From Comamonadaceae bacterium OS-1 (GTDB lineage: Bacteria; Pseudomonadota; Gammaproteobacteria; Burkholderiales; Burkholderiaceae_C): DNA of 64,000 nucleotides. Position numbers and translations under genes: made by a program. The notes beneath the pieces are model-generated. The model had not been told where the DNA came from. It saw only the letters and a program-made list of their open reading frames with translations, and searched no databases. Shown piece after piece: positions 1,476 through 60,831 of the stretch (position 1 is its first letter; every line of letters starts with the position of its first letter). The stretch is from NCBI GenBank assembly GCA_027923965.1, contig AP026969.1, positions 496,001 to 560,000 on the forward strand. Reading direction: 5' to 3'.

Positions 1476-1532
1476 GCTGCTGAAAATATAGCTACTTGTG
1501 CCGATGGAATAAGCGCTAGAGCCCTATTTCAT
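1476..1532 (+). repeat. Palindromic element copy A (at the 3' end of the EF-hand gene)
   Basis: Contains the left end GCTGCTGAAAATATAGCTAC and the core GATGGAATAAGCGCTAGAG of the dispersed palindromic family described in the findings. Its right end overlaps the last codon and TGA stop of the EF-hand gene, so it marks a gene boundary. Copies are given as + when the core reads AGCTGCT then GGAATAAGCGC on the + strand. Confidence 0.8.
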
Positions 1533-2242
1533 GCTGAAACGTTGACAGTGGAGCCCGTGGTTTGGCTGCGCTGCCCGGCGGCGATATCGGCGTATTGCTG
1601 GAGTACCTGCTGGGCCAACTGCTGGATATCGATGCGGCCAGTCCCGTTGGCGCTCGTGGCCGATGACTTTTGCAGCGTCTCCACCGCGGTGCTGACCTGC
1701 TTGGCAAAGGCATCGGCTTCGGTGCTGCTGAGCTTGCCGTCCTTGTCGGTGTCGATGGCTTTGAGCAGGGCCTGCAAGGTGTCGGTGGTACTGGCCGTGC
1801 CGTTGGCGGCACCGGCAGCGGCTTCGGCGGCCGAGACGATGCCGTCCTTGTTGGTGTCCAGCGGGTCGTAGACGGTGCTGTCGCTGCTGCTGGCGGCTTC
1901 GGCAGGCGGTGGGCCGCCGGGGGGCGGGCCGCCCGCGCCGCGCGTTTGCGAAAACTCCATGGTGCTGGGCAGGGGCACGATGCTGGGGATGCCTTTTTGC
2001 AGCTCGTCGGCATCCAGGCTGCCGTCGCCGTTGCCATCCAGCGACGACATCAGGTCGGTGGCGGTGCTGGTGTTGGCCACGCCGGTGCGTTCGGACACCT
2101 TGTCCATCAGGGTTTGCAGTTCGGTGCTGTCCACGCCGCCGCTGCCATCGGTGTCGGTCTTGGCGAACAGCTTGGCTTTGCGATCGGAGGCTTGGGCCGC
2201 CCAGGCGCTGCTGTTGTTGCCGATGCTGCTGATGGAAGCCAT
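1529..2242 (-). CDS. EF-hand calcium-binding protein with four EF loops
   Basis: A 237-residue protein starting MASISSIGNN, chosen because AAAGGA lies six bases before this ATG; a start 27 bp earlier has no such site. Four EF-hand loops occur as two pairs: DTDGSGGVDSTEL and DGNGDGSLDADEL in the first half, DTNKDGIVSAAEA and DTDKDGKLSSTEA in the second. A Gly/Pro-rich linker (GGPPPGGPPPAEA) joins the pairs. There is no clear signal peptide or membrane segment. It looks like a calcium sensor or buffer, similar in layout to the XopAW-type EF-hand proteins of proteobacteria; no partner is evident. The stop codon lies inside a palindromic repeat. Confidence 0.8.
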   Translation of the reverse strand: MASISSIGNNSSAWAAQASDRKAKLFAKTDTDGSGGVDSTELQTLMDKVSERTGVANTSTATDLMSSLDGNGDGSLDADELQKGIPSIVPLPSTMEFSQTRGAGGPPPGGPPPAEAASSSDSTVYDPLDTNKDGIVSAAEAAAGAANGTASTTDTLQALLKAIDTDKDGKLSSTEADAFAKQVSTAVETLQKSSATSANGTGRIDIQQLAQQVLQQYADIAAGQRSQTTGSTVNVSA

Positions 2243-2423
2243 AAAAGTCCTTTGAAGTCGTCCGCCCAATTCTTGTGATGCTGGGTAAAGAGGGTTTGTC
2301 CGGTTTGTATCGGCCCTGGTACAAAAGCCCGTTTGAGCGCCGGAAAAGGCCGGTAAAGGGCTGCCAGTTCTGCGCTTAAAGGGGTTTTTGCCTGCCTACA
2401 CTTTTCGGCGAAATGAGCAACTT

Positions 2424-8528: not shown

Positions 8529-8548
8529 GGGGTTCCTACAATCGGCCT

Positions 8549-10933
8549 ATGTTCTCTGTAAATACTAACTTGCCCACCGACAACGCGCCGCTCCTGCACA
8601 ACCTTAACCCTGAGCAGTTGGCGGCTGTTACCCTGCCCACCGGCCACGCGCTGATCCTGGCCGGGGCCGGCTCCGGCAAGACCCGGGTGCTCACCACCCG
8701 CATCGCCTGGCTGCTGCAGACCGGGCGCGTCACCCCTGGCGGCATCCTGGCGGTTACGTTCACCAACAAGGCCGCCAAGGAAATGGTGCTGCGCCTGGGC
8801 ACCATGCTGCCCATCAACGTGCGCGGCATGTGGATAGGCACCTTCCACGGCCTGTGCAACCGTCTGCTGCGCGCGCATTACAAGCTGGCGAACCTGCCGC
8901 AGAGCTTCCAGATCCTGGACACCCAGGACCAGCTCAGCGCCATCAAACGGCTATGCAAGCAATTCAATATAGACGACCAACAGTACCCTGCCAAACAAAC
9001 CCAATGGTTTATTGGTAACTGCAAGGAAGAAGGTCTGCGCCCTGGCGATGTGGAGAGTCACGACCCGCAAACCCGCAAGAAAATCGAGATTTACGCGCTG
9101 TACGAAGAGCAGTGCCAGCGTGAAGGCGTGGTCGATTTTGGCGAGCTGATGCTGCGCAGTTTTGAATTGCTGCGCGACCAGGATGCCATCCGCGAGCACT
9201 ACCAGCGGCGTTTTCGCCACATCCTGATCGACGAGTTCCAGGACACCAACAAGCTGCAGTACGCCTGGATCAAGATGCTGTCCGGCCACGGCCCTAAAGA
9301 CCTGGCCAACGGTACGGCGATGCCCGGCGGCAGCGTGCTGGCGGTGGGCGACGACGACCAGAGCATCTACGCCTTCCGCGGCGCGCGGGTGGGCAACATG
9401 GCCGACTTTGTGCGTGAATTCGGCGTCACGCAGCAGATCAAGCTGGAGCAAAACTACCGCAGCTTCAGCAACATCCTGGACTCGGCCAACCAGCTCATCA
9501 GCCACAACAGCAACCGCCTGGGCAAAGACCTGCGCACCACCCAGGGCCCCGGCGAGCCGGTGCGGGTGGTGGAGAACCCGCGGGATCTGGACGAAGCCCA
9601 GTGGATCGTCGATGAAGTGAAGCAGCTGGTACGCGACGGCATGCCGCGCCAGGAAATCGCCGTGCTCTACCGCAGCAACGCCCAAAGCCGGGTGATCGAA
9701 ACCGCGCTGTTCAACGCCGCCATTCCCTACCGCGTGTTTGGCGGCCTGCGCTTTTTCGAACGGGCCGAAATCAAGCACGCGCTGGCCTATCTGCGCTTGC
9801 TGGAAAATGCCAACGACGACACCAGCTTTCTGCGCGTGGTCAACTTCCCGCCGCGCGGCATCGGTGCCCGCAGCCTGGAGATTTTGCAAGATGCCGCCCG
9901 CAGCAGTGGCTGCTCGCTGCACGATGCGGTGAGCATCATCCCCGGCAAAGCCGGGGCCAACTTCGGTGCCTTCGTGGCCAAGCTGGACGTGCTGCGTGAG
10001 CAGACCGAAGGCCTGTCCTTGCGCGAAATCATCGACCTGGTGCTGGACCACAGCGGCCTGCTGGCCCACTTCAAGGCCGACCGCGAGGGTGAAGACCGGG
10101 TGGAAAACTTGGAGGAGTTGGTCAATGCGGCCGAAAGCTTTGTGTCCCAGCAAGGCTTTGGCCGCGATGCCGTGGCCCTGCCGCTGGACGAACTCAGCCA
10201 GTCCCCCGCCAGCCAGGGCCTGGATGCCAGCTTGCCTGCCGCAGACGGTTTCATCGACCAGGACAGCGGCGAAACCCTGTCGCCCCTGGCCGCCTTCCTG
10301 ACCCACGCCGCCCTGGAAGCGGGCGACAACCAGGCCAAGGCCGGCCAGGATGCCGTGCAGCTCATGACCGTGCACTCCGCCAAGGGCCTGGAGTTCGATG
10401 CCGTGTTTGTCGGCGGCATGGAAGAAGGCCTGTTCCCGCACGAAAACTCGCTCAGCGACCGCCAGGGCCTGGAGGAAGAGCGCCGCCTGATGTACGTGGC
10501 CATCACCCGCGCCCGCCAGCGCCTGTACCTCAGCTTTTCGCAAAGCCGCCTGCTGCACGGCCAGACCCGCTACAACCCGCGCAGCCGGTTTTTCGACGAG
10601 CTGCCGGAGGGCGCGCTGAAGTGGATCACCTCCAAACCCTCGGGGTATGGGTTTGCTCCTAAATCAGGAGCTTCTCACGCTTATGGATACAGCGCTGGAG
10701 GCACTTTTAATAAAGAAAATGCCACCTTCGCCAGCCCCCCTGTGCCGCCGCAAAAAGCCACCCCCAGCCACGGTCTGCGCGTGGGCATGCAGGTGTTCCA
10801 CACCAAGTTCGGCGAAGGCAAAGTCAATCTGCTGGAAGGCAGCGGCGACGATGCCCGCGCGCAAATCAACTTCCCGCGCCATGGCGTGAAGTGGCTGGCC
10901 TTGAGCGTGGCGAAGCTGACCCCGGTGCCCTGA
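8549..10933 (+). CDS. uvrD: ATP-dependent DNA helicase UvrD/PcrA-type
   Basis: A 794-residue superfamily 1A 3'-5' helicase for nucleotide-excision and mismatch repair. Walker A is GAGSGKT at 39-45, Walker B IDEFQDTN with Asp228/Glu229, motif III GDDDQSIYAFRGA, motif IV QNYRS, motif V VHSAKGLEF and motif VI YVAITRARQRLYL. The last 50 residues (GLRVGMQVFHTKFGEGKV onward) form the PcrA/UvrD Tudor-like domain that contacts RNA polymerase, which argues for UvrD over Rep. Between motif VI and the Tudor domain, residues 703-722 are encoded by a palindromic repeat (copy B). The ATG is preceded by TACAAT six bases upstream and no Shine-Dalgarno, hinting at a near-leaderless mRNA. Confidence 0.93.
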   Translation: MFSVNTNLPTDNAPLLHNLNPEQLAAVTLPTGHALILAGAGSGKTRVLTTRIAWLLQTGRVTPGGILAVTFTNKAAKEMVLRLGTMLPINVRGMWIGTFHGLCNRLLRAHYKLANLPQSFQILDTQDQLSAIKRLCKQFNIDDQQYPAKQTQWFIGNCKEEGLRPGDVESHDPQTRKKIEIYALYEEQCQREGVVDFGELMLRSFELLRDQDAIREHYQRRFRHILIDEFQDTNKLQYAWIKMLSGHGPKDLANGTAMPGGSVLAVGDDDQSIYAFRGARVGNMADFVREFGVTQQIKLEQNYRSFSNILDSANQLISHNSNRLGKDLRTTQGPGEPVRVVENPRDLDEAQWIVDEVKQLVRDGMPRQEIAVLYRSNAQSRVIETALFNAAIPYRVFGGLRFFERAEIKHALAYLRLLENANDDTSFLRVVNFPPRGIGARSLEILQDAARSSGCSLHDAVSIIPGKAGANFGAFVAKLDVLREQTEGLSLREIIDLVLDHSGLLAHFKADREGEDRVENLEELVNAAESFVSQQGFGRDAVALPLDELSQSPASQGLDASLPAADGFIDQDSGETLSPLAAFLTHAALEAGDNQAKAGQDAVQLMTVHSAKGLEFDAVFVGGMEEGLFPHENSLSDRQGLEEERRLMYVAITRARQRLYLSFSQSRLLHGQTRYNPRSRFFDELPEGALKWITSKPSGYGFAPKSGASHAYGYSAGGTFNKENATFASPPVPPQKATPSHGLRVGMQVFHTKFGEGKVNLLEGSGDDARAQINFPRHGVKWLALSVAKLTPVP
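10655..10715 (+). repeat. Palindromic element copy B (inside uvrD)
   Basis: GCTCCTAAATCAGGAGCT leads into CACGCTTATGGATACAGCGC and TGGAGGCACTTTT. It is read through in frame and encodes APKSGASHAYGYSAGGTFN in the low-conservation linker before the Tudor domain. Confidence 0.85.
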
Positions 10934-11000: not shown

Positions 11001-11243
11001 ATGACAGACCTGAAAGAATTCCACGTCGGCGACTGTGTCGTCTCGCTGTTTGCCAAACCCATGGTGGACGGCACCTGGCTGGCGCGCGTGGGCATTGCCC
11101 AGCACTACGGCATGCCCATCCCCAGCCAGCGCGTCTTCAGCTTCGACAACCCGTTTGTCTCGGAAGACAACGCCCTGGCCCATGCACGCGAGCAAGGCCT
11201 GCGCATTGCACGCGACCCGGTGGCGTTTTTGCAGATGGCGTAA
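11001..11243 (+). CDS. Small conserved protein of unknown function
   Basis: An 80-residue soluble protein beginning MTDLKEFHVGDCVVSLFAKP, with AGGAG seven bases before the ATG. It contains a phrase like VGIAQHYGMPIPSQRVFSF and ends REQGLRIARDPVAFLQMA. I recognise no named family; the layout (a short beta-rich start, then a helix) suggests a compact single domain. A second, damaged copy of the same gene lies about 2 kb downstream, so the family has duplicated here. It follows uvrD by 67 bp in the same direction but has its own ribosome site. Confidence 0.75.
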   Translation: MTDLKEFHVGDCVVSLFAKPMVDGTWLARVGIAQHYGMPIPSQRVFSFDNPFVSEDNALAHAREQGLRIARDPVAFLQMA

Positions 11244-13895: not shown

Positions 13896-13956
13896 CTATA
13901 AAAAATCGGCACTTTGCGCTTATTGCGTCAGCGTAAGTAGCTCTGTATTTTGTAGC
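13896..13956 (-). repeat. Palindromic element copy C (between arsR and arsC)
   Basis: On the minus strand GCTACAAAATACAGAGCTAC leads to GACGCAATAAGCGCAAAGTG. It fills most of the 93-bp gap, so the RNA between the two genes should form a hairpin. Confidence 0.8.
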
Positions 13957-13980
13957 AAATTCATTTTCTAACCCAATCGA

Positions 13981-14487: not shown

Positions 14488-15173
14488 GCCACTCTGTCCC
14501 CCACAGCCTGCCCCAGCAGCTGCTGGCTGAATGCCTGGGCACGGCAGCGCTGCTGTGCGCGGTGATTGGCTCAGGGATCATGGCCGAGCGGCTGGCGGAC
14601 GGCAATGTGGCGGTGGCGCTGCTGGCCAATACGCTGGTGACGGTGTGGGCGCTGTACGTGCTGATCGAAACCCTGGGCCCGGTGAGCGGCGCACACTTCA
14701 ACCCATTGGTGACCTTGGTGATGTGGTCAAAAAGGCAGTTGACGCCCATGGATAGGGCACAAGTAGCTCTGCTTTTTATAGTATTCCAGCTGCTGGGCGC
14801 GGTGCTGGGGGCCTGGTTGGCACATGCCATGTTCGACCTGCCCCTTCTGCAAACCAGCGCCAAGTTACGTACCGGCACCGGCCAGTGGATCGCCGAGGCG
14901 GTGGCCACGGCCGGGCTCATCTTTACCATCCTGCGCGCCCCGGCGGGCAAGGCGAGCGTGCTGGTGGCCAGCTACATTGGCGCGGCCTACTGGTGTATGG
15001 CCAGCACCAGCTTTGCCAACCCCGCCGCTGTCCTGGGCCGCATGTTGAGCGATAGCTTTGCCGGTATTGCCCCGGCCAGCGCACCGGGTTTTGTGCTGGC
15101 GCAGTGTGTGGGCGCGTTGGTGGGCCTGGGGCTGGCCCGGTTTTTTGATCACTCTACCGAAGGAACACGATGA
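14484..15173 (+). CDS. aqpS: Aquaglyceroporin AqpS-like arsenite channel
   Basis: A 229-residue MIP-family channel with six membrane segments. The two half-helix motifs are NPL (73-75, in GAHFNPLV) and NPA (179-181, in STSFANPAAVLGR); the first departs from NPA as in AqpS of Sinorhizobium. In that system (arsR-aqpS-arsC-arsH) As(III) formed by ArsC flows out through the channel, replacing ArsB or Acr3. Here the gene sits between two arsC genes, with a GTGA overlap upstream and ATGA downstream. Residues 82-100, the cytoplasmic loop and start of a helix, are encoded by a palindromic repeat (copy D). Confidence 0.9.
   Translation: MSHSVPHSLPQQLLAECLGTAALLCAVIGSGIMAERLADGNVAVALLANTLVTVWALYVLIETLGPVSGAHFNPLVTLVMWSKRQLTPMDRAQVALLFIVFQLLGAVLGAWLAHAMFDLPLLQTSAKLRTGTGQWIAEAVATAGLIFTILRAPAGKASVLVASYIGAAYWCMASTSFANPAAVLGRMLSDSFAGIAPASAPGFVLAQCVGALVGLGLARFFDHSTEGTR
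14727..14784 (-). repeat. Palindromic element copy D (inside aqpS)
   Basis: On the minus strand it reads AGAGCTACTTGTGCCCTATC then CATGGGCGTCAACTGCCTTT. Translated with the gene it gives LTPMDRAQVALLFIV, in the same frame as the copies in dxs, dxr and lpxB. Confidence 0.75.
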
Positions 15174-15595: not shown

Positions 15596-16289
15596 TATCG
15601 ATCCGGCGCTGTTCCAGGTGCCCACCCAGGCCGCTCTGCACGCCACGCCGCCCAGCACCCACCCGCCGCGCATCCTGCTGCTGTACGGCTCGCTGCGCGA
15701 GCGCTCGTTCAGCCGCCTGCTGAGCGAGGAGGCCGCCCGGCTGCTGACCGCCATGGGGGCCGAAACCCGCACCTTCGACCCGCACGGCCTGCCGCTGGCC
15801 GACGGCGCGCCCGAATCGCACCCCAAAGTGCAGGAGCTGCGCGAACTGGCGCAGTGGGCCGAGGGCATGGTCTGGTGCAGCCCCGAGCGCCACGGCGCGA
15901 TGACCGGCACCATGAAGACCCAGATCGACTGGATTCCGCTCGCCCAGGGCGCGGTGCGGCCCACCCAGGGCAAAACGCTGGCGGTGATGCAGGTCAGCGG
16001 TGGCTCGCAGTCGTTTAATGCCGTGAACCAGCTGCGCGTGCTGGGCCGCTGGATGCGCATGCTCACCATCCCCAACCAGTCGTCGGTGGCCAAGGCGTTT
16101 CTGGAATTTGACGAGGCCGGGCGGATGAAGCCGTCGGCGTATTACGACCGGGTGGTGGACGTGGTGGAGGAACTGCTCAAGTTCACCCTGTTGACCCGGG
16201 ACGCGTCGCCCTACCTGGTCGACCGCTACAGCGAGCGCAAGGAGAGTGCCGAGGCCCTGTCCCAGCGGGTCAACCAGACGAGTCTATAA
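15585..16289 (+). CDS. arsH: ArsH, NADPH-dependent FMN reductase
   Basis: A 234-residue flavoprotein that oxidises trivalent organoarsenicals and gives resistance to them. FMN binding is seen in [17 protein letters not shown] and [35 protein letters not shown] and the C-terminal [11 protein letters not shown] are typical of ArsH. A TTG start at LPNIDPALF, preceded by GGGGGAA, gives the usual length; an earlier TTG would add 16 residues of weak similarity. Last gene of the ars operon. Its stop codon TAA lies in the end of palindromic copy E. Confidence 0.9.
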
Positions 16290-16341
16290 ATCAGCCTCTT
16301 GTGCTTATCCCATCAGCACGAGAAGCTATCTATTCAATAGC
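16283..16341 (-). repeat. Palindromic element copy E (between convergent genes)
   Basis: On the minus strand GCTATTGAATAGATAGCTTC and GATGGGATAAGCACAAGAG. It supplies the TAA of arsH at one end and the TAG of the convergent BPSS1780-family gene at the other, so the whole 40-bp gap is this element; it may also act as a terminator hairpin. Confidence 0.85.
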
Positions 16342-17136
16342 GTCGGGGGCTTTTGCTTCGACTTCTTCTACCCCGTCGGCCGCAAAGCTGTCGCGGAAGC
16401 TGAAGTAGATGGAGGTCAGGAACATGCAGGTGGTCAGCAGCGTCACCACCAGCGCGCCCACGCCCAGAAACACGGGCTGGTCCAGCAGCGCGGCCAGCAG
16501 TTGCACCACCATGCCCACCACCAGCAGCACGCCAAACCAGCTCAGGCCAAAGAGTACGTAAGCGCCCTTGTTGCGCCAGCAGGCCACCAGGCTGAAAAAC
16601 AGGCTTTTGCCCGGGCTGATGCCGTGCCAGTGCACCAGCGCAGGCGCATGCCAGAAGGCCAGCGACAGCGGCAGGTGCAAGACCATGAAGGCCAGCATGC
16701 CCGCCTGCAGCCGCAGGGGCTCGTCGGTGGCCTCGTCGGCCCCCCGGGTGCCCATGAAAACGTGCGCAAATTCACCGCCATCGACCAGGGCCGAGATGCC
16801 CAGCACCACCATGAAGCCCACGGCATACAGGGCTCCCAGCACCAGCATCGGGCGCAGGCCCTGTTGCCCGGCGCGCAGGGCGCTGAGCACGATGCTGGGG
16901 GTGGGGAACTTGCCCTTGGTGGCTTCCCGCGTGGCGGCCATCAGTGCCAGCGCCATGGTGGGCAGGAACACCATTGCGGCGATGCTGCCCAGCACCGGCA
17001 CCAGGCTGATGATGCTGAGTGCGGCCATGCACATGAAGAACAGCCCGGCCAGCGCCAGCGGCTGCTGGAAAAAGGTCTGGATGCCCAGCCGCACCCACAG
17101 GGCGCCGGTGCGTGCGGGGACGATTTGGAGTTTCAT
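16330..17136 (-). CDS. BPSS1780-family membrane protein
   Basis: A 268-residue inner-membrane protein starting MKLQIVPARTGALWVRLGIQ, the hallmark start of the BPSS1780 family, with six or so membrane segments. Function unknown. It is immediately downstream of thrB (6 bp), as part of the run DUF2782-thrB-BPSS1780 on the minus strand. That arrangement also occurs in other Burkholderiales, which suggests co-expression rather than a proven link to threonine synthesis. The last codons (DAIE and stop) come from palindromic copy E. Confidence 0.85.
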   Translation of the reverse strand: MKLQIVPARTGALWVRLGIQTFFQQPLALAGLFFMCMAALSIISLVPVLGSIAAMVFLPTMALALMAATREATKGKFPTPSIVLSALRAGQQGLRPMLVLGALYAVGFMVVLGISALVDGGEFAHVFMGTRGADEATDEPLRLQAGMLAFMVLHLPLSLAFWHAPALVHWHGISPGKSLFFSLVACWRNKGAYVLFGLSWFGVLLVVGMVVQLLAALLDQPVFLGVGALVVTLLTTCMFLTSIYFSFRDSFAADGVEEVEAKAPDAIE

Positions 17137-18442: not shown

Positions 18443-19288
18443 CTAACCTTGGGCGAACGGGCGTGTGGGATCGCTGCACCAGTCGCTCCAGCTCCCGGCG
18501 TACAGGCCGGTGCGGCCCAGCCCGGCGATTTCCATGGCGATCAGGTTGGGGTTGGCGCTGACACCGCTGCCGCAGTGGTGCACCACGCTGGCCGGGTCGC
18601 GCTGGCCCAGCAGGGCGGTGAACTCGGCGCGTAATTGCTCGGCGGGTTTGAATGTGCCGTCCGGCCCCAGGTTCTGGCTGAACGGGCGGTTGAGGGCGCC
18701 GGGAATGTGGCCCGCCACCGGGTCCAGCGGCTCCACCTCGCCCTTGAAGCGCGGCGTGGCCCGGGCATCGACGATGGTCTGGCTGGCGCGGCCCAGGTTG
18801 CTTACTACAGTTTCTGTAGCTACCAAGCTAGACAGGGAGGGCGCAGGCACGAAATTGGTTGAGAATTTCTGGGGCTCGACCTCGGCGCTTACCGCACCAC
18901 CTGCCGCCTGCCAGGCCTGCAGGCCACCGTCCAGCACCGCCACCGCCCGATGGCCCACCCATTTCAGCATCCACCACAGGCGGCCCGCGTAGTTGACGCC
19001 GTTGCGGTCGTACACCACGGCCTGCATGCCGTTGGCAAAGCCCACGCTGCCCAGCCAGGCGGCAAAGGCCTCTTGGGTGGGTAGCGGGTGGCGGCCACCC
19101 GACATCGCCGGGCCGGTTTTGGCGCTCAACGCCGTGTCCAGGTGCGCGTACACCGCGCCGGGGATGTGGGCCGTGCGGTAGGCCTGCTGGCCTGCGTCGG
19201 GCTGGGTGAGGTCGAACGTGCAGTCGAACACCATGTGGGGCTGCTCTAGCTTCTGGAGTTGCTCTGCGGAGATGAGGGTGGTGTACAT
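18443..19288 (-). CDS. 3-mercaptopyruvate/thiosulfate sulfurtransferase
   Basis: A 281-residue two-domain rhodanese. The N-terminal domain is structural: the loop VVYDRNGVNYAGRLWWMLKW has no Cys. The C-terminal domain carries the active loop HHCGSGVSAN. The CGSGV form is typical of mercaptopyruvate sulfurtransferase (SseA) rather than thiosulfate-specific rhodanese (CRxGx[RT]), so transfer of sulfur from 3-mercaptopyruvate is likely. The linker between the domains holds a short piece of the palindromic repeat (copy F). It follows the EamA gene by 13 bp in the same direction. Confidence 0.9.
   Translation of the reverse strand: MYTTLISAEQLQKLEQPHMVFDCTFDLTQPDAGQQAYRTAHIPGAVYAHLDTALSAKTGPAMSGGRHPLPTQEAFAAWLGSVGFANGMQAVVYDRNGVNYAGRLWWMLKWVGHRAVAVLDGGLQAWQAAGGAVSAEVEPQKFSTNFVPAPSLSSLVATETVVSNLGRASQTIVDARATPRFKGEVEPLDPVAGHIPGALNRPFSQNLGPDGTFKPAEQLRAEFTALLGQRDPASVVHHCGSGVSANPNLIAMEIAGLGRTGLYAGSWSDWCSDPTRPFAQG
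18800..18820 (-). repeat. Partial palindromic element copy F (inside the sulfurtransferase gene)
   Basis: GCTACAGAAACTGTAGTAAG matches only the left end of the element (GCTACnAAA then TAGCTGCTTGC with gaps). Read in frame it gives ATETVVS in the interdomain linker, the frame used in uvrD and nnr. Short and divergent, so this copy is the least certain. Confidence 0.4.
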
Positions 19289-20232: not shown

Positions 20233-20292
20233 GATGATAAAAAGGCCTCTCACGCCCATTCCATGAGCGTGAGCAGCTACTGTTTTTATAGC
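20233..20292 (-). repeat. Palindromic element copy G (between Rieske and EamA genes)
   Basis: On the minus strand GCTATAAAAACAGTAGCTGC, then CTCATGGAATGGGCGTGAG and AGGCCTTTTTATC. CTCACGCTCATGGAATGGGCGTGAG splits into a good stem. It supplies the TAA stop of the Rieske gene and fills the gap to the next gene. Confidence 0.9.
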
Positions 20293-21428
20293 GTCGTTCC
20301 GTCCATGGCGCGGCGGTACCACTCGTGGAAATGCTGCATGCCGTCTTCCATGGGGCTTTGGTAGGGGCCGACTTCGTTGTCGCCGCGCTGCAACAAGGCC
20401 TTGCGGCCTGTGTCCATGCGCAGGGCGATTTCGTCGTCTTCCACACAGGTTTCCATGTAGGCGGCCTGCTGGGCTTCGACAAAGTCGCGCTCGAAGCAGG
20501 CAATTTCTTCGGGGTAGAAGAACTCCACCATGTTCAGCGTCTTGTTCGGGCCGATCGGGTGCAGGGTAGACACGGTGAGCACGTGCGGATACCACTCGAC
20601 CATCACATTGGGGTAGTAGGTGAGCCAGATTGCGCCGTGCTTGGGGGCTTGGCCCTGGTTGTAGGCCTTGAGCGCGTCCTGCCAGCGCTGGTAGGCCGGG
20701 CTGCCCGCTGCGCCCAGGCGCTGGGCCAGGCCCACGGTTTGCACCGAGTACTGCTCCTTGAACTCCCACTGCAGGTCGTCGCAGGTAACAAAGCCGCCCA
20801 GCCCGGGGTGGAAGGGGCCGACGTGGTAGTCCTCCAGGTAGACCTCGATGAAGGTCTTCCAGTTGTAGTCGCACACATGCATTTCCACGTGGTCGAGCAC
20901 GTGGCCGGTGAAATCCAGGTCGGCCAGCGGGCCCATGCCGGCCAGGTCGGCTTGCACGTCGCGGCTACCCTCGAACAGCAGGCCATTCCACTCTTGCAAC
21001 GGGTACTGGTTTAAATTGAGACACGGGTCCTGGGCGAAATGCGGCGCGCCCAGCAAGGTGCCGGTGGGCGCGTGGGCCCCGCCACTGTAGGTCCAGCGGT
21101 GCAGCGGGCAGACGATATTGCCGCCCGCGCTGCCCTGCTGCGTGGTGTTCAGCGAACCCCGGCCCTTGAGCATCACCGCCTGGCGGTGGCGGCACACGTT
21201 GGACACCAGTTCCACGCCGCGCGGCGTGCGCGTCAACACGCGGCCCTCGCCCTCTTGCGGCAGGGCGTAGTAGTCGCCCAGCTCGGGTACGGCCAGTGTG
21301 TGACCGACATAGCGTGGCCCCCGCTGGAAAATAGTGGCGACTTCACGCTGGAACAGCGCTTCGTCAAAGTAGCTTGAAACTGGTAGTTGGCTTGCGGCCT
21401 GCTGCAGTTGAAGACTTAAATCAGACAT
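20286..21428 (-). CDS. Rieske non-heme iron oxygenase, alpha-subunit type
   Basis: A 380-residue ring-hydroxylating-oxygenase alpha subunit. The Rieske [2Fe-2S] motif is CRHRQAVML followed after 16 residues by CPLHRWTYSG. The mononuclear iron site lies in EVYLEDYHVGPFHPGL with its two His, the third ligand Asp being near the C-terminus. It resembles choline-monooxygenase and aromatic-demethylase-like members; the substrate cannot be told. No ferredoxin or reductase is encoded nearby. AGGACA precedes the ATG at MSDLSLQL. The stop codon is supplied by palindromic copy G. Confidence 0.9.
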   Translation of the reverse strand: MSDLSLQLQQAASQLPVSSYFDEALFQREVATIFQRGPRYVGHTLAVPELGDYYALPQEGEGRVLTRTPRGVELVSNVCRHRQAVMLKGRGSLNTTQQGSAGGNIVCPLHRWTYSGGAHAPTGTLLGAPHFAQDPCLNLNQYPLQEWNGLLFEGSRDVQADLAGMGPLADLDFTGHVLDHVEMHVCDYNWKTFIEVYLEDYHVGPFHPGLGGFVTCDDLQWEFKEQYSVQTVGLAQRLGAAGSPAYQRWQDALKAYNQGQAPKHGAIWLTYYPNVMVEWYPHVLTVSTLHPIGPNKTLNMVEFFYPEEIACFERDFVEAQQAAYMETCVEDDEIALRMDTGRKALLQRGDNEVGPYQSPMEDGMQHFHEWYRRAMDGTTL

Positions 21429-25687: not shown

Positions 25688-26036
25688 CGTTTCACCTTCT
25701 ATGGGCTTGGGCGCCGCATCGCGGCCAGCCGAGTCGGCGAATGTAGTGGGGGTGGGGCGCAAAGGGAACGATGGATTCGGAGTTAGTTAACTACGAACAA
25801 ATATGAGGCGCGGGGATGGCAGCGGACATACGCCGCCGGGTTTAAGTGAAAAAGCCGTTTTGTGCTGGTACCGTAAGCGTGAATAGCTATTTAATTAGTA
25901 GCAATAGAAGAGCCTGTGCGCAGGGGAAAACCCGCGCCAATTCGGCAATTGCGACTTCTTACAATCGGCGCTGACTTGCAGTCTCCGCCGTTTTTTCTGG
26001 ATGGCGGATTTCCATCTATTACGGGAGTTAACTCAA
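25688..26036. other. Intergenic region between the divergent TauD and DctP genes
   Basis: No gene is seen in these 349 bp. They hold a perfect 10-bp palindrome TAGTTAACTA at 25784-25793 (possible regulator site), palindromic copy I at 25846-25902, and TACAAT at 25960-25965 as a candidate -10 box for dctP. No convincing -35 box accompanies it. Confidence 0.5.
25846..25902 (-). repeat. Palindromic element copy I (upstream of dctP)
   Basis: On the minus strand GCTACTAATTAAATAGCTAT, then TTACGGTACCAGCACAAAAC and GGCTTTTTCAC. It lies about 135 bp before dctP. Confidence 0.8.
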
Positions 26037-32359: not shown

Positions 32360-32360
32360 T

Positions 32361-32418
32361 GCTATGTAAAAAATAGCTGCTCACGCTCAGCAGATAAGCA
32401 CAAACGGTACTTTTTATA
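32361..32418 (+). repeat. Palindromic element copy J (after the EgtB-like gene)
   Basis: GCTATGTAAAAAATAGCTGC, then TCACGCTCAGCAGATAAGC and ACTTTTTATAT. It starts one base after the EgtB-like stop codon and could form a 3' hairpin. Confidence 0.88.
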
Positions 32419-32505
32419 TAAATATTCCTAGGAAGCCTGTAGGGCGGCTTCGGTGGCGGTTTGGATTAGGATGGACCCATCCTTTTGCCTGGAACGCCTT
32501 TCACC

Positions 32506-38186: not shown

Positions 38187-38198
38187 CAAGATAAGGTG

Positions 38199-41501: not shown

Positions 41502-42976
41502 ACCCTCGCCAGCGCGCTGGCCGTCAACGGCTGGCCTGCGGGCCAATGGTCTGCCGCCTGGCCGTGCGCAAACACCGCCTCGCAGGCGGCGGCTACCGCG
41601 TACTGGCCCATCGCCAGCCGGGCACCGACCATGCCGGCCAGTACATCCCCGGTTCCCGCGGTGGCCAGCCGTCCGTTGCCTGTCGGGTTGATGCATGGCA
41701 CTTGGCTGGGCGCAGCGATGACCGTGCCCGAGCCTTTCAATACCACCACGCAGGCGAAGCGGTCGGCCAGTTGCTGGGTGGCGCTGAGCCGATCGGCCTG
41801 GATCTGGGCGGTGCCGCAGCCCAGCAGGCGGGCGGCTTCCAGCGGATGCGGGGTGAGTACCGTGGGCAGGCCCTGGGCGGCACGGGCGCGCAACTGGGCC
41901 TGCAAGGCGGTGTCTGTGGCGATGGCGTTCAGCGCGTCGGCATCCAGCACCAGCCGGGCCGCCTCGGCCAGCACCCGGGGCAACAGGGCCCGCACCGCCT
42001 CGCCACCACCACAGCCGCAGACCACGGCCAGCGCGTGCAAGGCCAGGGCGCTGGGGGCGCGGAACATCAGTTCGGGCTGCTGCGGGTGCACGCCCAGGCT
42101 GCCGCCGTCCAGCAGGCCCACGAAGACCCGCCCGGCCCCCGTGTGCAGCGCGGCGCTGGCGGCCAGCAGGGCGGCACCGGCCATGCCCGGCGCACCGCCG
42201 AGGATGGCCACGTCGCCATAGCTGCCTTTGTGGCTGGCATGTGTGCGGCTGTTCGACACCGGTGCGCCGACCAATTGGGCGGTGGGGCCGCTGCCCGGGG
42301 CAATGTCTAAATCGTCGAGCCAGACCTGGCCAGCGGTGTCGCGGCCATGGCCGGTGAACAGGCCGGGTTTGAGGCTGAGCAGGCTCAGGGTATGTTGGGC
42401 ATAAATTGTGCTGCTCGTGCTTATTCCATCGGCACTGCCAGCTACGGATTGCATAGCAAAACTGCCGGTGTCGGCCTGCAGCCCGGTGGGCAGGTCGATG
42501 GCCAGCGTGGGTGCAGGGCTGGCGTTCATGGCGCTGATCCACGCGGCCATGGTGCCCGCCGGGGGGCGGCTGCTGCCGATGCCCAGGAGTGCGTCGATGC
42601 ACAGGTCCTGGGCAGTCAGTCCGGTGGGCGGCGCATCGGCGAAAGGCACACCTGCCGCGCGGGCGCGGGCCAGGGTGGCCAGGCTGTCGGCGGGGGCGCT
42701 GGCTTCTGTGCCCAGCCAGGTCACCAGCACGGCTTTGCCGCGCAAATGCAGCTGGGTGGCGGCCTCCAGCCCGTCACCGCCGTTGTTGCCGGGGCCGCAG
42801 GCGATCCATACGGTGCGGGCGTGCGGTGCGAGCGCCTGGGCCAGCCGGGCCACGGCCAGCCCGGCACGCTGCATCAGGGTGTGGGGCGGCAGGCTGGCCA
42901 TGGCGGCCTGCTCGATGCGGCGCGTGGCGGCGGTGTCGAACAGGGGGTGGGCGCGGTCGGGTGTGATGCGTTGCAT
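41498..42976 (-). CDS. nnr: Bifunctional NAD(P)H-hydrate epimerase/dehydratase
   Basis: A 491-residue metabolite-repair enzyme that restores damaged NADHX/NADPHX. The N-terminal YjeF epimerase domain has [20 protein letters not shown]; the C-terminal ribokinase-like dehydratase has [20 protein letters not shown]. Between [11 protein letters not shown] of the epimerase domain and [13 protein letters not shown], residues 174-192 are encoded by a palindromic repeat (copy K), making that loop about a dozen residues longer than I would expect for the family. It follows the DadA-like gene by 23 bp. The two convergent stop codons with the SDR share CTAG. Confidence 0.92.
42401..42457 (-). repeat. 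Palindromic element copy K (inside nnr)
   Basis: On the minus strand GCTATGCAATCCGTAGCTGG, then GTGCCGATGGAATAAGCAC and CACAATTTATG. GTGCCGATGGAATAAGC is shared exactly with copy A. Translated in frame it gives [19 protein letters not shown]. Confidence 0.88.
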
Positions 42977-42999: not shown

Positions 43000-44253
43000 T
43001 CAGTGCCGCAGGCGCTCCAGCCCCAGGCCTTCCATATCCACCTCAGGTGCACGGCCTGCCACCAGGTCGGCGGTGGTACGGGCGCTGCCACTGGCCAGGG
43101 CCCAGCCGTAGGCACCGTGGCCCAGGTTCAGCCACACGCCGGGCCGACCGCTGGGGCCGATCAGCGGGCTGCCATCGGGCAGGGTGGGGCGGGCGCCTTT
43201 CCAGATTTGCACATTGCTGGCGAGCTGGGCGGCGCCGGGGAACCAGTCGTACAGCACCTTGTAGAGGCGGGCGATGGTGGCTGGGTGCTTGGTGTCGGAG
43301 CGGCTACCGATGGCGACACCGCCCGCCACGCGCACGCGTTGGCCCATGCGGGCAATGGAGATCTGGTGCTGGCCGTCCACCACTGCGCTGACCGGGGCGT
43401 TCAGCGGCTCGCGGATGGCGGCAGACAGCGAGTAGCCCAACACCGCCGCCAGTGGAATCTGCACGCCCAGTGGCCTCAGCAGCGCCGCCGAGGCGACACC
43501 GGCGCAGACCACCACCGCGTCGAAACGGCGCGGCGTGGACTCGTTTGCTATGGAAACCGTAGCTGCTGGTGCTGGCTCTATATGCGCTACTGTGCGATTG
43601 AACTCAAATTGCACGCCGAGCTGCTGGGCCACGGCCTTGAGTTGCATGGTGAACTGGCGGCAGTTGCCCACGGCATCGCCGGGCAGGTGGATGGCGGCGG
43701 CCAAAGGGGTGTCGGCGTTCAGGGCGGGTTCGTGCCGCCGGGCGGCTTCGGCATCGAGCTGTTGCCAGCCCACACCTGCCTCGCGCAGCCATTGCAGGCC
43801 GGGCTGGGCCTGGGCGAGCTCTTTAGCGGTGCGCAGCAGCAGCAGGCTACCCTCGCTGCGGTCATAGTCCAGGTGCAGGTGGTGGGTCAGGGCCTGCAGG
43901 TGTTCTGCGCTGTACCCGGCCAGGCGCTGCAGCCGGGCGTGCTGCTCTTGGTAGACGGCGGGTTGTTGCGCGCGCCGCCATTTCCATAACCATGCCAGTT
44001 CGCTGCCGGTCAAACCCCAGCCGAGCTGGACGGGGGCATTCTGGCTGAACAGGCCTTGCAGCAGGGTGCGCGGCATACCGGAGGTGGGGCTGGGAAGGGC
44101 AGTGCCCAGGGTGAGCAGGCCCGCATTGGCAAAGCTGGCTTCCTCGGCGGCGGCGCTGCGGCGCTCAAAAACGGTGACCTGGTGGCCGTCGACGGCCAGT
44201 TCGTACGCGGTGCTGACACCCACCACACCCGCGCCAATGACGGCGATCTTCAT
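43000..44253 (-). CDS. D-amino acid dehydrogenase-like FAD oxidoreductase
   Basis: A 417-residue DAO/DadA-family flavoprotein. The FAD site is MKIAVIGAGVVGVSTAYELA with the acidic end of strand 2 (VFERRS); the C-terminal FAD contact is VWLNLGHGAYGWALASGSAR. LAWLWKWRRAQQPA is typical of DadA. It would oxidise D-amino acids to oxo acids and pass electrons to the respiratory chain; other secondary amines are possible. Residues 218-236 (part of VAHIEPAPAATVSIA) come from palindromic copy L in a variable loop. nnr lies directly downstream. Confidence 0.86.
   Translation of the reverse strand: MKIAVIGAGVVGVSTAYELAVDGHQVTVFERRSAAAEEASFANAGLLTLGTALPSPTSGMPRTLLQGLFSQNAPVQLGWGLTGSELAWLWKWRRAQQPAVYQEQHARLQRLAGYSAEHLQALTHHLHLDYDRSEGSLLLLRTAKELAQAQPGLQWLREAGVGWQQLDAEAARRHEPALNADTPLAAAIHLPGDAVGNCRQFTMQLKAVAQQLGVQFEFNRTVAHIEPAPAATVSIANESTPRRFDAVVVCAGVASAALLRPLGVQIPLAAVLGYSLSAAIREPLNAPVSAVVDGQHQISIARMGQRVRVAGGVAIGSRSDTKHPATIARLYKVLYDWFPGAAQLASNVQIWKGARPTLPDGSPLIGPSGRPGVWLNLGHGAYGWALASGSARTTADLVAGRAPEVDMEGLGLERLRH
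43547..43600 (+). repeat. Palindromic element copy L (inside the DadA-like gene)
   Basis: GCTATGGAAACCGTAGCTGC, then TGGTGCTGGCTCTATATGC and GCTACTGTGCGATT. Antisense to the gene; the gene reads it as VAHIEPAPAATVSIA, the same frame as copies D, H, N, O and P. Confidence 0.7.
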
Positions 44254-44299: not shown

Positions 44300-44364
44300 T
44301 ATATGAAAAATGCCGCTTGTGCTTATTGAATAAGCGTAAGCAGCTATTAAAACTGTAGTGTAGC
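44300..44364 (-). repeat. Palindromic element copy M (end of the amidase gene)
   Basis: On the minus strand GCTACACTACAGTTTTAATA, then GCTTACGCTTATTCAATAAG and GGCATTTTTCAT. TTACGCTTATT and AATAAGC pair. Its left end provides the last codons (TLQF) and TAA of the amidase gene. Confidence 0.9.
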
Positions 44365-46684: not shown

Positions 46685-46711
46685 AAGAGGGGCGCAAGCC
46701 CCCTTTTTTTT
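46685..46711 (+). terminator. Terminator/attenuator between rpsB and tsf
   Basis: GGGGC and GCCCC around GCAA, extended by A and T pairs, run into eight T residues. As rpsB and tsf are usually cotranscribed, it may work as a partial stop that sets S2 above EF-Ts levels. Confidence 0.8.
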
Positions 46712-46744
46712 ACTAATTTTTGATTATTGAAGACGGAGAAAAAT

Positions 46745-50656: not shown

Positions 50657-51835
50657 ATGAAACAGACTTTGACGATTTTGGGTTCCACCGGCTCGGTGGG
50701 TACCAGCACGCTGGACGTGGTGTCGCGCCACCCGGACCGGTTTGCGGTGTTCGCCCTGACCGCGGCCACCCAGGTGGACCTGATGCTGCAGCAGTGCGCG
50801 CAGTTCAAGCCCCGTTTTGCCGTGATGGCCAGCGCGCAGCATGCCGAGCTGCTGGCCGAAAAAATTAAGCAAAATAGCCTTCCCACGCTTGTTCTATCAG
50901 CGCAAGCAGCTATTGAAATGGTAGCGTCGCACCCTGAGGTCGATGCGGTCATGGCGGCCATCGTCGGCGCGGCCGGCCTGGCCCCGTGCCTGGCTGCGGC
51001 ACGGGCGGGCAAACGCCTGTTGCTGGCCAACAAAGAGGCGTTGGTGGTGGGGGGTGAGGTGTTTTTGGCGGCCGTGAAGCAGGGCGGGGCCTTGCTGTTG
51101 CCTATCGACAGCGAGCATTCGGCGGTGTTCCAGTCGCTGCCCGAAGACCCGGCGGTCTGGCCCCGGCGCATCGAGAAAATCATGCTGACCTCGTCGGGCG
51201 GCCCGTTCCGCACCCGCGACCCGGCCACGCTGCGCGACGTGACCCCCGAGCAGGCCTGCGCCCACCCCAACTTCGCCATGGGCCGCAAGATCTCGGTGGA
51301 TTCGGCCACCATGATGAACAAGGCGCTGGAGGTGATCGAGGCCAAATACCTGTTTGGCGTAACCCCCGAGCAGATCGAGGTGGTGATCCATCCCCAGCAA
51401 ATCATCCATTCCATGGTGCAGTTCCACGACGCATCGGTGATGGCGCAGCTAGGTACGCCGGACATGCGGGTGCCGATTGCCTATGGCCTGTCGTGGCCCG
51501 AGCGCATCGAGAGCGGCACGGCGCGGCTGGATTTTTCCAAAATGGCGGCCATGACCTTCGAGGTGCCGGATTTCCAGCGCTTCCCCTGCCTGCAACTGGC
51601 CTGGGAGAGCCTGCGTGCCCCCTCGGGCACCTGCGCGGTGCTGAACGCGGCCAACGAGGTGGCGGTGGGCGCCTTTTTGGACCGGCGTATCCGCTTTGAC
51701 CAGATCCATGCGATCAATCTTGCAACTTTGGCGGCGGTCAGCCCCTCCAAGCCTCAGACGCTGGAAGATTTGCTGGCGTTGGACTCGGAATCCCGCGCCG
51801 TGGCGCAGCAGACTGTGTCCCGTCTGACCCTTTGA
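50657..51835 (+). CDS. dxr: 1-deoxy-D-xylulose 5-phosphate reductoisomerase
   Basis: A 392-residue NADPH enzyme, second step of the MEP pathway. LTILGSTGSVGTSTLDVVSR is the NADPH loop, ALVVGGEVF and IDSEHSAVFQSL bind metal and substrate, and MGRKISVDSATMMNKALEVI is conserved. Residues 69-90, in the surface part of the NADPH domain, are encoded by palindromic copy N (PTLVLSAQAAIEMVA). Protein length stays normal, so the repeat seems to have replaced, not just added, sequence. Confidence 0.95.
   Translation: MKQTLTILGSTGSVGTSTLDVVSRHPDRFAVFALTAATQVDLMLQQCAQFKPRFAVMASAQHAELLAEKIKQNSLPTLVLSAQAAIEMVASHPEVDAVMAAIVGAAGLAPCLAAARAGKRLLLANKEALVVGGEVFLAAVKQGGALLLPIDSEHSAVFQSLPEDPAVWPRRIEKIMLTSSGGPFRTRDPATLRDVTPEQACAHPNFAMGRKISVDSATMMNKALEVIEAKYLFGVTPEQIEVVIHPQQIIHSMVQFHDASVMAQLGTPDMRVPIAYGLSWPERIESGTARLDFSKMAAMTFEVPDFQRFPCLQLAWESLRAPSGTCAVLNAANEVAVGAFLDRRIRFDQIHAINLATLAAVSPSKPQTLEDLLALDSESRAVAQQTVSRLTL
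50863..50925 (-). repeat. Palindromic element copy N (inside dxr)
   Basis: On the minus strand GCTACCATTTCAATAGCTGC, then GCTGATAGAACAAGCGTGGG and AAGGCTATTTTGC. Shares frame and peptide (PTLV, AQAA, VA) with the copy at the end of dxs. Confidence 0.9.
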
Positions 51836-58324: not shown

Positions 58325-59481
58325 TGTCCGACCCCCGCGTCGCCATGGTGGCCGGAGAGGCCTCTGGCGACTTGCTCGCCGGCCTGGTGCTGGACGGCCT
58401 GCGGGCACGCTGGCCCGACCTGCAGGCCAGCGGCATCGGCGGCCCGCAGATGGCCCGGCGCGGCTTCCAGGCGCTGTGGCCCAGCGAGCGGCTGGCGGTG
58501 CATGGCTACAACATGGACGTGTTTCGCCGCCTGTGGGAGCTGTTGGGCATCCGCAAACAGCTGCGTGAACGCCTGCTGCGCGAGCGGCCAGGCGTGTTCA
58601 TCGGTGTGGACGCGCCCGACTTCAACCTGGGGCTGGAAGCGGCGCTGAAAGCCGGGGGCATCCCCACCGTGCATTTCGTCTGCCCGTCCATTTGGGCCTG
58701 GCGCGCCGACCGGGTGGAGAAAATCCGCCGCGCGGCCGACCATGTGCTGTGCATTTTTCCGTTCGAGCCCGAGTTGCTGGCCCAGTACGGCATTGCATCC
58801 ACCTACGTGGGCCACCCGCTGGCCAATGTGATCCCCCTGCAACCCGACCGCGCCGCTGCACGGCAGACGCTGGGCCTGACACCGGAAGACACCGTGGTCG
58901 CCATCCTGCCCGGCAGCCGCCAGTCGGAAATCAAATACCTGGCTTTGAGGTTCTTTCAGGCTGCAGCGCTTATCCAGCAAGCACGACAAGCTATTAAATT
59001 TGTAGTACCTGCCGTTCCCACGCTGCGCACCCGCATCGAGGCCCTGGCCGCCGAGGCGGGCATGGCCGGGCGCATCCAGATCGTTTCCGGCCAGTCGCAC
59101 ACCGTGCTGGCCGCCTGCGATATCACCCTGATTGCCAGCGGCACGGCCACGCTGGAGGCGGCGTTGTTCAAGCGGCCCATGGTGATTGCCTACAACATGC
59201 ACTGGTTTTCGTGGCGGATGATGCAGCGCAAGCAGCTCCAGCCCTGGGTGGGTTTGCCCAATATCCTGTGCCGCGACTTCGTGGTGCCCGAACTGCTGCA
59301 AGACGCGGCCACGCCCCAGGCCCTGGCCGATGCCTGCCTGCAATGGCTGGCCCCCGTCGCCTCTGCGAGAATCGCGGCCCTTGAAGCCACATTCACCGCA
59401 CTGCACCACAGCCTGCAGCGCGATACTGCCCAGTTAGCCACCGATGCCATCCAAAAAATTATCACCACCCGTGCAAGCTGA
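58324..59481 (+). CDS. lpxB: Lipid-A-disaccharide synthase
   Basis: A 385-residue GT19 glycosyltransferase joining UDP-diacylglucosamine and lipid [36 protein letters not shown] and [20 protein letters not shown] are characteristic; [20 protein letters not shown] and [20 protein letters not shown] bind the nucleotide sugar. Residues 209-228, just after the GSRQSEI loop, are encoded by palindromic copy O. It overlaps rnhB by 38 bp. Confidence 0.95.
58949..59008 (-). repeat. Palindromic element copy O (inside lpxB)
   Basis: On the minus strand GTACTACAAATTTAATAGCT, then GTGCTTGCTGGATAAGCGC and TGCAGCCTGAAAG. The gene reads it as [14 protein letters not shown], the frame of the dxs and dxr copies. 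Confidence 0.85.
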
Positions 59482-60061
59482 GTTGACCTGGCCCACCCGG
59501 GGCCTGGTGGCCGGGGTGGACGAAGCCGGGCGCGGCCCGCTGGCCGGGCCGGTGGTAGCCGCCGCCGTGATCCTGGATGAGCGCCAGCCGATTGCGGGCC
59601 TGGCCGACTCCAAAAAGCTCACCGCCAAGCGCCGCGCCCAGCTGTATGACGAAATCCTGGCCAAAGCCCTGTGCTGCTCGATCGCCGAGGCCAGCGTGGA
59701 AGAAATCGAAAAGCTCAACATCCTGCAAGCCACCATGCTGGCCATGCAGCGGGCCGTGCAAGGCCTGCGCCTCAAGCCCGGCCATGTGCTGGTGGACGGC
59801 AACCGCGTGCCGGTACTGGCCATGACCAGCGAGGCCATCGTCCAGGGCGATGCCCTGGTACCCGCGATTTCCGCCGCGTCCATCTTGGCCAAGGTCACCC
59901 GCGACCGCTGGTGCGCCCAGGTGGATGCCGACTATCCGCAGTACGGGTTTGCCGGGCACAAGGGCTACGGCACAGCCGCGCACCTGGCGGCGCTGCAGGC
60001 ACACGGGGCCTGCCCGCTGCACCGCAAGACTTTTGCGCCGGTAACGGCGGTGCTGGCATGA
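59444..60061 (+). CDS. rnhB: Ribonuclease HII
   Basis: A 205-residue RNase HII that removes ribonucleotides from [23 protein letters not shown] holds the catalytic Asp/Glu, [19 protein letters not shown] and [16 protein letters not shown] the other conserved parts. It starts inside lpxB and its TGA overlaps the next ATG. Confidence 0.96.
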
Positions 60062-60831
60062 GCTCGGACCCCATCACCCACATCCAGTCGCGCGACAACC
60101 CGCTGCTCAAGGAGCTGCGCCGCCTGTCGCAAGACAGCACCGCCTACCGCAAGCAGGGCAGGGTGTGGCTGGAAGGCGACCACCTGTGCCGCGCCGCGCT
60201 GGCCCGGGGCTGGAAACCGGCACTGGCTATTTTTTCAGAGTCTTTTTGGCCTCTAGCGCCCACGGAATGGGCGAGAGAAGCTACTAAAACCATAGTAATC
60301 AAAGATGCGCTATTGGCCGACCTCAGCGGCCTGGAGTCGCCCGCGCCCATGGGCTTTGTGATCGATTTGCCCGCCACCGCCACGCTGGACCCGGCCGCTG
60401 CCAGCGTCATCCTTGACCGGGTGCAGGACGCAGGCAACGTGGGCTCCATCCTGCGCAGTGCCGGGGCGTTTGGTTTCCAGCAGATCATCGCCCTCAAGGG
60501 CACGGCGGCGCTGTGGAGTCCCAAGGTGCTGCGCGCCGGCATGGGTGCGCATTTTGGCCTGCGCCTGGTCGAAGGCATCGAGCCCGAGGCGCTGGATGCC
60601 CTGACCGTGCCGCTGGTCGTCACCAGCTCCCACCAGGGCGCGCTGCTGCAGGACCAGAAGTTGCCGTACCCCTGCGCCTGGGCCATGGGCCACGAAGGGC
60701 AGGGCGTAGGCCCGGCCTTGCTGGCGCGCGCCAAAGTGTCGGTGCGCATCGGCCAGCCGGGCGGCGAAGAGTCGCTGAACGTGGCCGCAGCGGCGGCGAT
60801 TTGCCTGCATGCATCGTCGGTAGGGCGCTAA
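60058..60831 (+). CDS. SpoU/TrmH-family rRNA 2'-O-methyltransferase
   Basis: A 257-residue SPOUT methyltransferase. Motif 1 is [20 protein letters not shown], motif 2 [19 protein letters not shown], motif 3 [19 protein letters not shown]; together they form the SAM knot. The N-terminal part ([20 protein letters not shown]) is the L30e-like RNA-binding domain of rRNA methylases. The target nucleotide is not known. Residues 60-81 are encoded by palindromic copy P. The TAA stop is part of the left arm of the large inverted repeat that follows. Confidence 0.92.
60237..60299 (-). repeat. Palindromic element copy P (inside the SpoU methylase gene)
   Basis: On the minus strand ATTACTATGGTTTTAGTAGC, then CTCGCCCATTCCGTGGGCGC and TAGAGGCCAAAAAGAC. 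GCCCATTCCGTGGGC is a clear stem. The gene reads [15 protein letters not shown] in the common frame. Confidence 0.9.

Follow-up and report, generated by a model that had tools for sequence, protein, structure and literature searches.

A 62-bp dyadic motif with within-genus dialects in Comamonadaceae: a candidate self-DNA label

The window studied here, 64 kb of the 5.12-Mb genome of Comamonadaceae bacterium OS-1 (AP026969.1, positions 496,001-560,000), holds 16 copies of an imperfect palindrome of about 62 bp. At the loci tested, these elements arise in place by point mutation and are not copied in, and they are held in place once formed. Within one genus, the inner half-sites of the motif switch together across whole genomes. 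We consider it very probable that the element is a motif of in-place origin, read by a protein and maintained by selection or drive. As to its use, we tentatively prefer a label for DNA uptake or recombination, marking self-DNA in the manner of uptake sequences. With slightly less assurance, we suggest that molecular drive may have established this dyadic label at around a thousand loci in Comamonadaceae, that its reader may have switched specificity within a genus, rewriting the sites together with residues of housekeeping proteins, and that this would represent a third independent code, besides those of the Pasteurellaceae and Neisseriaceae.

Abundance and anatomy of the element

The search model was an ungapped position-weight matrix of 62 columns, seeded with 11 copies from the window and then iterated over 460 kb, comprising the window and 20 fetched stretches, ten of which were chosen for holding core matches. 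In the window the matrix recovered, at 12 bits or more, exactly the 16 copies listed in a preliminary description of this DNA, each within a few bases of the position given there. Fifteen of these scored 45 to 79 bits, and the copy that had been called partial (element F) was weak, as that term implied, at 20 bits. The elements are as follows.

Element A, 1474..1535, plus strand: outside recognised genes, 66 bits
Element B, 10653..10714, plus strand: inside a uvrD-like helicase gene (8447-10933), 58 bits
Element C, 13897..13958, minus strand: between an open reading frame ending at 13901 and an arsC-like gene, 70 bits; mapped in no relative
Element D, 14723..14784, minus strand: inside an aquaporin-family gene (14484-15173), 45 bits
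Element E, 16282..16343, minus strand: over the 3' end of a BPSS1780-family gene (16330-17136, minus strand), 66 bits
Element F, 18802..18863, plus strand: inside the sulfurtransferase (MST) gene, weak, 20 bits
Element G, 20233..20294, minus strand: at the 3' end of a gene at 20286-21680 (minus strand), 63 bits
Element H, 24719..24780, minus strand: over the 3' end of dxs, 55 bits
Element I, 25843..25904, minus strand: outside recognised genes, 62 bits
Element J, 32359..32420, plus strand: at the 3' end of a SenA-like gene (30803-32359), 67 bits
Element K, 42398..42459, minus strand: inside nnr (NAD(P)H-hydrate repair), 54 bits
Element L, 43545..43606, plus strand: inside a dadA-like gene, 46 bits
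Element M, 44300..44361, minus strand: over the 3' end of an amidase gene (44347-46932, minus strand), 79 bits, the highest score in the window
Element N, 50866..50927, minus strand: inside dxr, 65 bits
Element O, 58947..59008, minus strand: inside lpxB, 57 bits
Element P, 60237..60298, minus strand: inside a TrmH-family methyltransferase gene, 53 bits

By open reading frame coordinates, eight of the 16 copies lie inside genes (uvrD, aquaporin, sulfurtransferase, nnr, dadA, dxr, lpxB and TrmH-like), with one more over the 3' end of dxs. The earlier statement that more than half of the copies are genic therefore stands for the window only; over 460 kb, a simple gene caller of our own placed 28 of 106 copies of at least 20 bits inside genes, 14 over a gene end and 64 in intergenic sequence. 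Two further statements, that many copies sit inside intact genes and that the family encodes no protein of its own, are borne out.

Abundance far above chance, likewise proposed beforehand, was confirmed by the profile scan, in which the excess over control sequence was large. We found 108 matches of at least 12 bits in 460 kb of the OS-1 genome, whereas a second-order Markov control gave none (the top control score in the first matrix round was 8.0), and a masked matrix applied to sequence on which it had not been trained, 280 kb of the related genome G153, gave 62 matches, against none in the control. A contiguous 260-kb stretch contained 52 copies of at least 20 bits, or one per 5 kb; extrapolated to 5.12 Mb, this density probably amounts to about 1,000 copies on the whole chromosome. 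Genome-wide, a 13-mer core occurs 139 times and a degenerate 14-mer core 494 times, compared with 2 and 6 occurrences of the respective reversed patterns. In a covariance-model search of the whole genome, 150 of 3,525 candidates were scored and all 150 matched. These scored copies occupy every 250-kb bin, and show no strong preference of strand or orientation across the genome; a replichore orientation bias in genome G004 was considered and dropped, as the complete list shows mixed orientations. Copy spacing is no more regular than random (coefficient of variation 0.84, null 0.76-1.26), and pairs of elements less than 500 bp apart are scarce, with one found and five expected.

In one orientation, the consensus reads TTTGCTAYnnWWTTnRTAGCTGCTYRYGCTnATnnnATAAGCRCnRGnGGCCnATTTYnTATAAAT. 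Two half-sites form a dyad at its centre (GCTTAT nnn ATAAGC in OS-1), and the left arm has the form CTAY...RTAGC, its RTAG preceding the dyad. The commonest start columns of the A-tracts are 19 and 62, which places the tracts 43 bp, or about four helical turns, apart. The tracts take AAA or TTT and avoid TpA (frequency of any TpA 0.46 on the left and 0.38 on the right, against 0.69 and 0.62 expected). A 10.5-bp AT period is not the strongest in the periodogram of the element, which peaks near 24 bp.

Columns that would face each other in a hairpin vary almost independently, as at columns 35 and 51, with 35 copies of TG, 29 of CG, 21 of CA and 19 of TA, and the best covarying pair of columns, 38-48, reaches a z of 2.3. 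When pairs were counted within the OS-1 genome against 500 shuffles, we found no sign of a stem kept by pairing: 77.1% of cells over the whole structure were paired, compared with 76.4% after shuffling (62 of 500 shuffles as high), and the covariation score was 0.174, compared with 0.163 (40 of 500 as high). Pair counting thus leaves a hairpin or RNA reading unsupported. As the arms hardly covary within the genome, a dyad read by protein at the DNA level fits better than a hairpin, and the palindrome behaves like a pair of half-sites within a DNA site, not like a folded stem.

Origin and retention of the sites

Wherever mapping succeeded, the 16 window elements were aligned with their syntenic counterparts in up to five congeneric genomes; the copies of the 260-kb stretch were placed in G153. 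Of the 52 copies in that stretch, 42 could be mapped by both flanks, and all 42 have an element of at least 29 bits in G153, with no empty site among them. The inner length is identical in 37 of these pairs, and differs by 1 to 9 bases in the other five. In the reverse direction, 42 of the 62 G153 elements were mapped, and 41 of these have an element in OS-1. Element F, at 20 bits in OS-1, scores 45 at one of two loci in G039 and less than 10 in G153, with no change of length across the element; in G151 it scores 36. Among 96 copies, no copy is closer than 81% identity to another, which gives no hint of recent copying.

The preliminary description had likened the family to Rickettsia palindromic elements, which insert in frame into proteins, and the presence of many copies inside intact genes would agree with this. 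At the sites tested, the likeness is refuted, and we regard inserted palindromes of this type as next to impossible here. Compared with solved homologues, Dxr, LpxB, Nnr, DadA (for which the alignment is weak) and the sulfurtransferase show 0 to 4 gap residues at the element and no 20-residue insert; the solved Dxr (1k5h) aligns gap-free across element N, as does the solved LpxB (5w8n) across element O. This comparison covers five proteins, with UvrD, aquaporin and the TrmH-like protein left out of it, and in Dxs the element lies at the C-terminus, beyond most of the solved homologue. Nor did alignment with relatives reveal an element-sized insert: no gap occurs at the in-gene sites apart from three extra residues at the left edge of the element in uvrD of G154 and G151, and at uvrD, MST and dxs the sequence of the motif-poor genome G150 runs colinearly through the element. 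Such alignments had been suggested as a means of locating insertion boundaries and target duplications; at the in-gene sites examined, we found no target duplication.

Once formed, the sites are conserved according to the information in each column. Over 36 gapless orthologous pairs with G153 (one more was excluded for low identity), 13 high-information columns diverge by 4.1%, and 19 low-information columns by 18.3% (Spearman correlation of information and divergence -0.54, p 3e-6), and the mean score changes by -0.9 bits, compared with -21.5 under random change at equal divergence. For the 20 pairs outside genes, informative and uninformative columns diverge by 3.5% and 24.7% respectively (Spearman -0.61), with a score change of -1.6 bits against -26.7 for random change; as the constraint is visible in these non-genic pairs, it does not come from protein coding alone. 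The 16 pairs inside genes diverge by 4.8% and 11.8%, with a score change of -0.1 bits against -16.6.

Inside genes, at the loci tested, the sites are built by codon choice. Twenty-six in-gene copies average 44 bits, compared with -11.5 for the same peptides at genome codon usage and -84 for random coding sequence; the other two of the 28 copies, which have a stop in the codons read, were left out. In-gene copies favour certain frames, with 16 of 28 antisense in one phase, as expected because stops must be avoided.

Dialects, distribution and co-occurring genes

At orthologous loci, genomes G000 and G153 spell the centre of the element GCTTAT/ATAAGC; G039, G154 and G151 mostly have GCAGGT and its mirror, and the outer arms are unchanged. 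Whole-genome counts of a GCTKAT pattern are 250 in G000, 234 in G153, 11 in G039, 6 in G151, 30 in G154 and 11 in G155, and those of a GCAGRT pattern, in the same order, are 9, 5, 61, 170, 157 and 161. Two genomes of the same genus stand apart: G150 is nearly without the motif (one match to the first pattern and nine to the second, with three in the control), and G152, which is 73% complete, has no match to either. The 3' end of dxs in G150 still scores 38 bits, perhaps as a relic of loss. A third spelling, CTTG, was found in G015 (12 copies).

The dialects may also bear on proteins. Amino-acid identity in the in-gene sites and in their flanks is 67% and 84% respectively in G154, 73% and 87% in G039 (where two MST loci are counted) and 70% and 86% in G151, all of the other dialect, and 56% and 79% in the motif-poor G150, compared with 90% and 93% in the same-dialect G153. 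This is suggestive of a DNA-level signal that may shape amino acids of housekeeping proteins, although in-gene sites may simply lie in variable loops.

Covariance-model matches were found in at least 63 of 150 genomes of the family, with up to 34 candidates scored in each genome, and 34 of the 150 have at least 10 core matches, a few of these being hardly above the reversed control. An exact search in the OS-1 dialect returned 17 named loci, from Acidovorax, Rhodoferax, Giesbergeria, Simplicispira, Extensimonas and Comamonadaceae bacterium. We take these genera to belong to the Comamonadaceae, in agreement with the earlier view of an abundant family in this group. Plasmid and phage searches gave no match, with a single 67-bp copy as the query, which would miss most diverged copies. 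A strict search of viral contigs gave no match either, and a looser scan returned ten contigs, one with a strong element (L147, 67 bits) and one with a weak match elsewhere (L152, 22 bits). The sole strong element among the ten, near position 7541 of IMGVR_UViG_2508501005_000001 (L147), possibly lies in the host flank of a provirus.

We compared the occurrence of two genes with that of the motif. ComEC is present in all 34 genomes with at least 10 core matches and in 110 of the 116 others; being nearly universal, it does not discriminate. A Y1 transposase gene is present once in OS-1, in 31 of the 34 genomes and in 81 of the 116 others. It was not found in the motif-rich genomes G095 and G141 (drafts rated at 100% and 99% completeness) and G040 (74%), nor in G020, despite 22 model matches there. 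Of the 21 loci of this gene that were read, from 20 other motif-rich genomes and OS-1, eight have an element of 19 to 43 bits at the gene's 3' end; these eight share one position of one gene, and hence may represent a single event. Linkage to a RAYT (REP-associated tyrosine transposase, REP being a repetitive extragenic palindrome) is, by these loci and by co-occurrence, weak at best. An RGGGAC tag is conserved 3' of the Y1_Tnp gene in 21 of 21 loci (L039, L123-L142), and is perhaps that gene's own repeat. In L139, an inverted pair AATTAATTGGGG...CCCAATTAATT lies 3' of the Y1_Tnp gene. G015 has twenty Y1_Tnp matches, several as two adjoining half-length pieces, indicating a multiplied and partly split IS200-like element.

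Elsewhere in the window, only three tRNAs reached the gathering score of an Rfam family, and the element matched no family. Two tRNA genes with their flanks form a tandem repeat on the minus strand (38005-38102 and 38192-38289, 98% identical over 98 bases). A 153-base direct repeat (11086-11238 and 13327-13479, 88% identical), with shorter repeats at equal spacing, probably reflects duplicated genes.

Competing explanations and known systems

In its mutational origin, its retention, its dyad read on the DNA and its genome-wide dialects, the element behaves like DNA uptake sequences. We envisage a protein that would recognise a DNA site of about 62 bp, by way of the two half-sites, the flanking A-tracts 43 bp apart and the left CTAY...RTAGC arm. 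Existing sequence, coding or non-coding, would drift into the motif by point mutation and then be held. A trans-acting reader of species-variable specificity could make the inner half-sites switch together genome-wide, and preferential uptake or recombination of label-bearing DNA could let better-matching alleles spread by drive at hundreds of loci. Drive would account for the joint change of hundreds of sites better than site-by-site fitness; an argument from drive has been published (PMC1939737).

Several observations weigh against a label. The information is spread over about 62 columns and not concentrated in a short core of about 9 to 12 bp, the range in which the core of the DNA uptake sequence (DUS) of the Neisseriaceae falls. 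The motif is also far longer than the 9-bp core of the uptake signal sequence (USS) of the Pasteurellaceae (PMC1626085). One literature search on uptake sequences in Comamonadaceae returned no paper, and we found neither uptake nor transformation data for a carrier. ComEC occurs in 144 of the 150 genomes, including the motif-poor G150; it looks short in G154, and in the motif-bearing G003 its match falls in three adjoining pieces (G003:C1:1836740-1837544) and looks split. In one of the 42 reverse-mapped cases, an intergenic presence/absence indel of 113 bp, which is not element-sized and could be gain or loss either way, includes the G153 element. In the 16 in-gene pairs alone, the correlation of information and divergence is weak (Spearman -0.24, p 0.06), and the density is lower in blocks not shared with G153, with three elements in 31.5 kb, a small number. 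Finally, the length, the dyad and the A-tract spacing suit a DNA-wrapping chromosomal protein equally well; we therefore hold the label as a tentative preference, and such a protein as doubtful but still a serious contender. In this main rival explanation, a homodimer of a chromosome-organising or nucleoid protein would wrap or bend about 60 bp, at some 1,000 sites under ordinary selection for chromosome structure. The A-tracts four helical turns apart, the copies in every bin, the lack of a strong orientation preference and the purifying pattern of divergence would all suit it. The switch of dialect at hundreds of sites within a genus is hard to reconcile with a fitness cost at each, however, and spacing is not more regular than random (though few pairs are close together), and the motif is all but missing from G150 and the 73%-complete G152.

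The remaining explanations appear improbable. A REP- or REPIN-like element (REPIN, a REP doublet forming a hairpin) moved by the single-copy, RAYT-like Y1 transposase is already disfavoured, and has little chance of being right. The gene is indeed present in most motif-rich genomes, RTAG stands before the dyad, an element adjoins the gene in eight of 21 loci, and one indel of 113 bp is known; but the tested in-gene copies are not insertions, near-identical copies are lacking, the arms hardly covary, the gene also occurs in most motif-poorer genomes and was not found in G095, G141 and G020, it carries its own RGGGAC tag at every locus, and many genes have an element near the 3' end in any case. 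An old miniature inverted-repeat transposable element (MITE), no longer moving, with intergenic copies later kept for function, is about as improbable. It would suit a short, palindromic, non-coding and mostly intergenic family, but leaves unexplained the in-gene copies without an insert, the genome-wide shift of dialect, and element F, which is strong in one relative and below 10 bits in another at constant length. Slightly more remote again is an element acting in RNA, such as a bidirectional terminator or an mRNA stabiliser. The dyad can be folded, more genes have a copy just beyond the 3' end (77 of 362) than at the 5' end (34 of 362), and intergenic copies lean towards convergent pairs (18 of the 60 with both neighbours called, convergent spacers making up 22% of spacer bases). 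Against this, there is little compensatory pairing within the genome, in-gene copies lie on both strands, and the orientations at gene 3' ends are even (39 to 38).

If the uptake or recombination label is correct, it would add another lineage to the two cited above, one whose motif is far longer and whose dialect has switched within a genus, and how such codes change would become directly testable. A chromosome-organising site would instead point to an abundant DNA-binding protein, new to science, in a large environmental family.

REP sequences are species-variable palindromes beside an RTAG-type tag. The present element resembles REP/REPIN-RAYT systems in its variable palindrome beside RTAG and in the Y1 transposase gene of most carriers, and differs in the lack of insertions at tested sites and of recent copies, the little stem covariation and the incomplete co-occurrence. 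HIP1 (GCGATCGC), the highly iterated palindrome of cyanobacteria, is likewise a many-copy palindrome that is present in genes, but is 8 bp long and linked to orphan methyltransferases. The names of the carrier genera, which we looked for in two REP papers, are absent from both (PMC3733652, PMC12306157). The betaproteobacterial repeat element (BRE), found in Bordetella and Comamonadaceae with some copies in coding sequence, is described as about 90 bp long, 69% GC in Bordetella, and arranged in tandem copies of variable number; we set it aside on this described length and GC content, not by sequence (PMC3110155).

The preliminary description knew of no account of this family in Comamonadaceae, which holds only in part, as pieces of the element have been printed before. 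A 2017 study (PMC5217627) gives ATAGCT(N)22CAAAAG (125 copies, Polaromonas naphthalenivorans CJ2) and GCTTAT(N)5AAGCG (114 copies, Acidovorax ebreus TPSY), mostly intergenic, with some in genes, and often between convergent genes. These motifs fit columns 24-57 and 36-51 of our matrix in register, and each of their fixed positions carries the base that ranks first or second in frequency there. Its motif section treats them as two separate 'potential novel motifs', and does not contain the whole element, its in-place origin, conservation or dialects. We found no fuller description of the 62-bp element in the literature searched, mostly outside subscription journals.

The closest parallels are with the uptake sequences of the Pasteurellaceae, which arise by mutation and come in two types, with uptake preferences to match (PMC1626085), and those of the Neisseriaceae, with eight dialects (PMC3630211). 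Like these, the present element has a high copy number in both orientations, also within genes, originates at the loci tested by point mutation (the 113-bp indel aside) and has clade-specific variants. Likened to them from sequence alone, it differs in its length of about 62 bp, its dyad, its occurrence in Comamonadaceae and its change of dialect within one genus.

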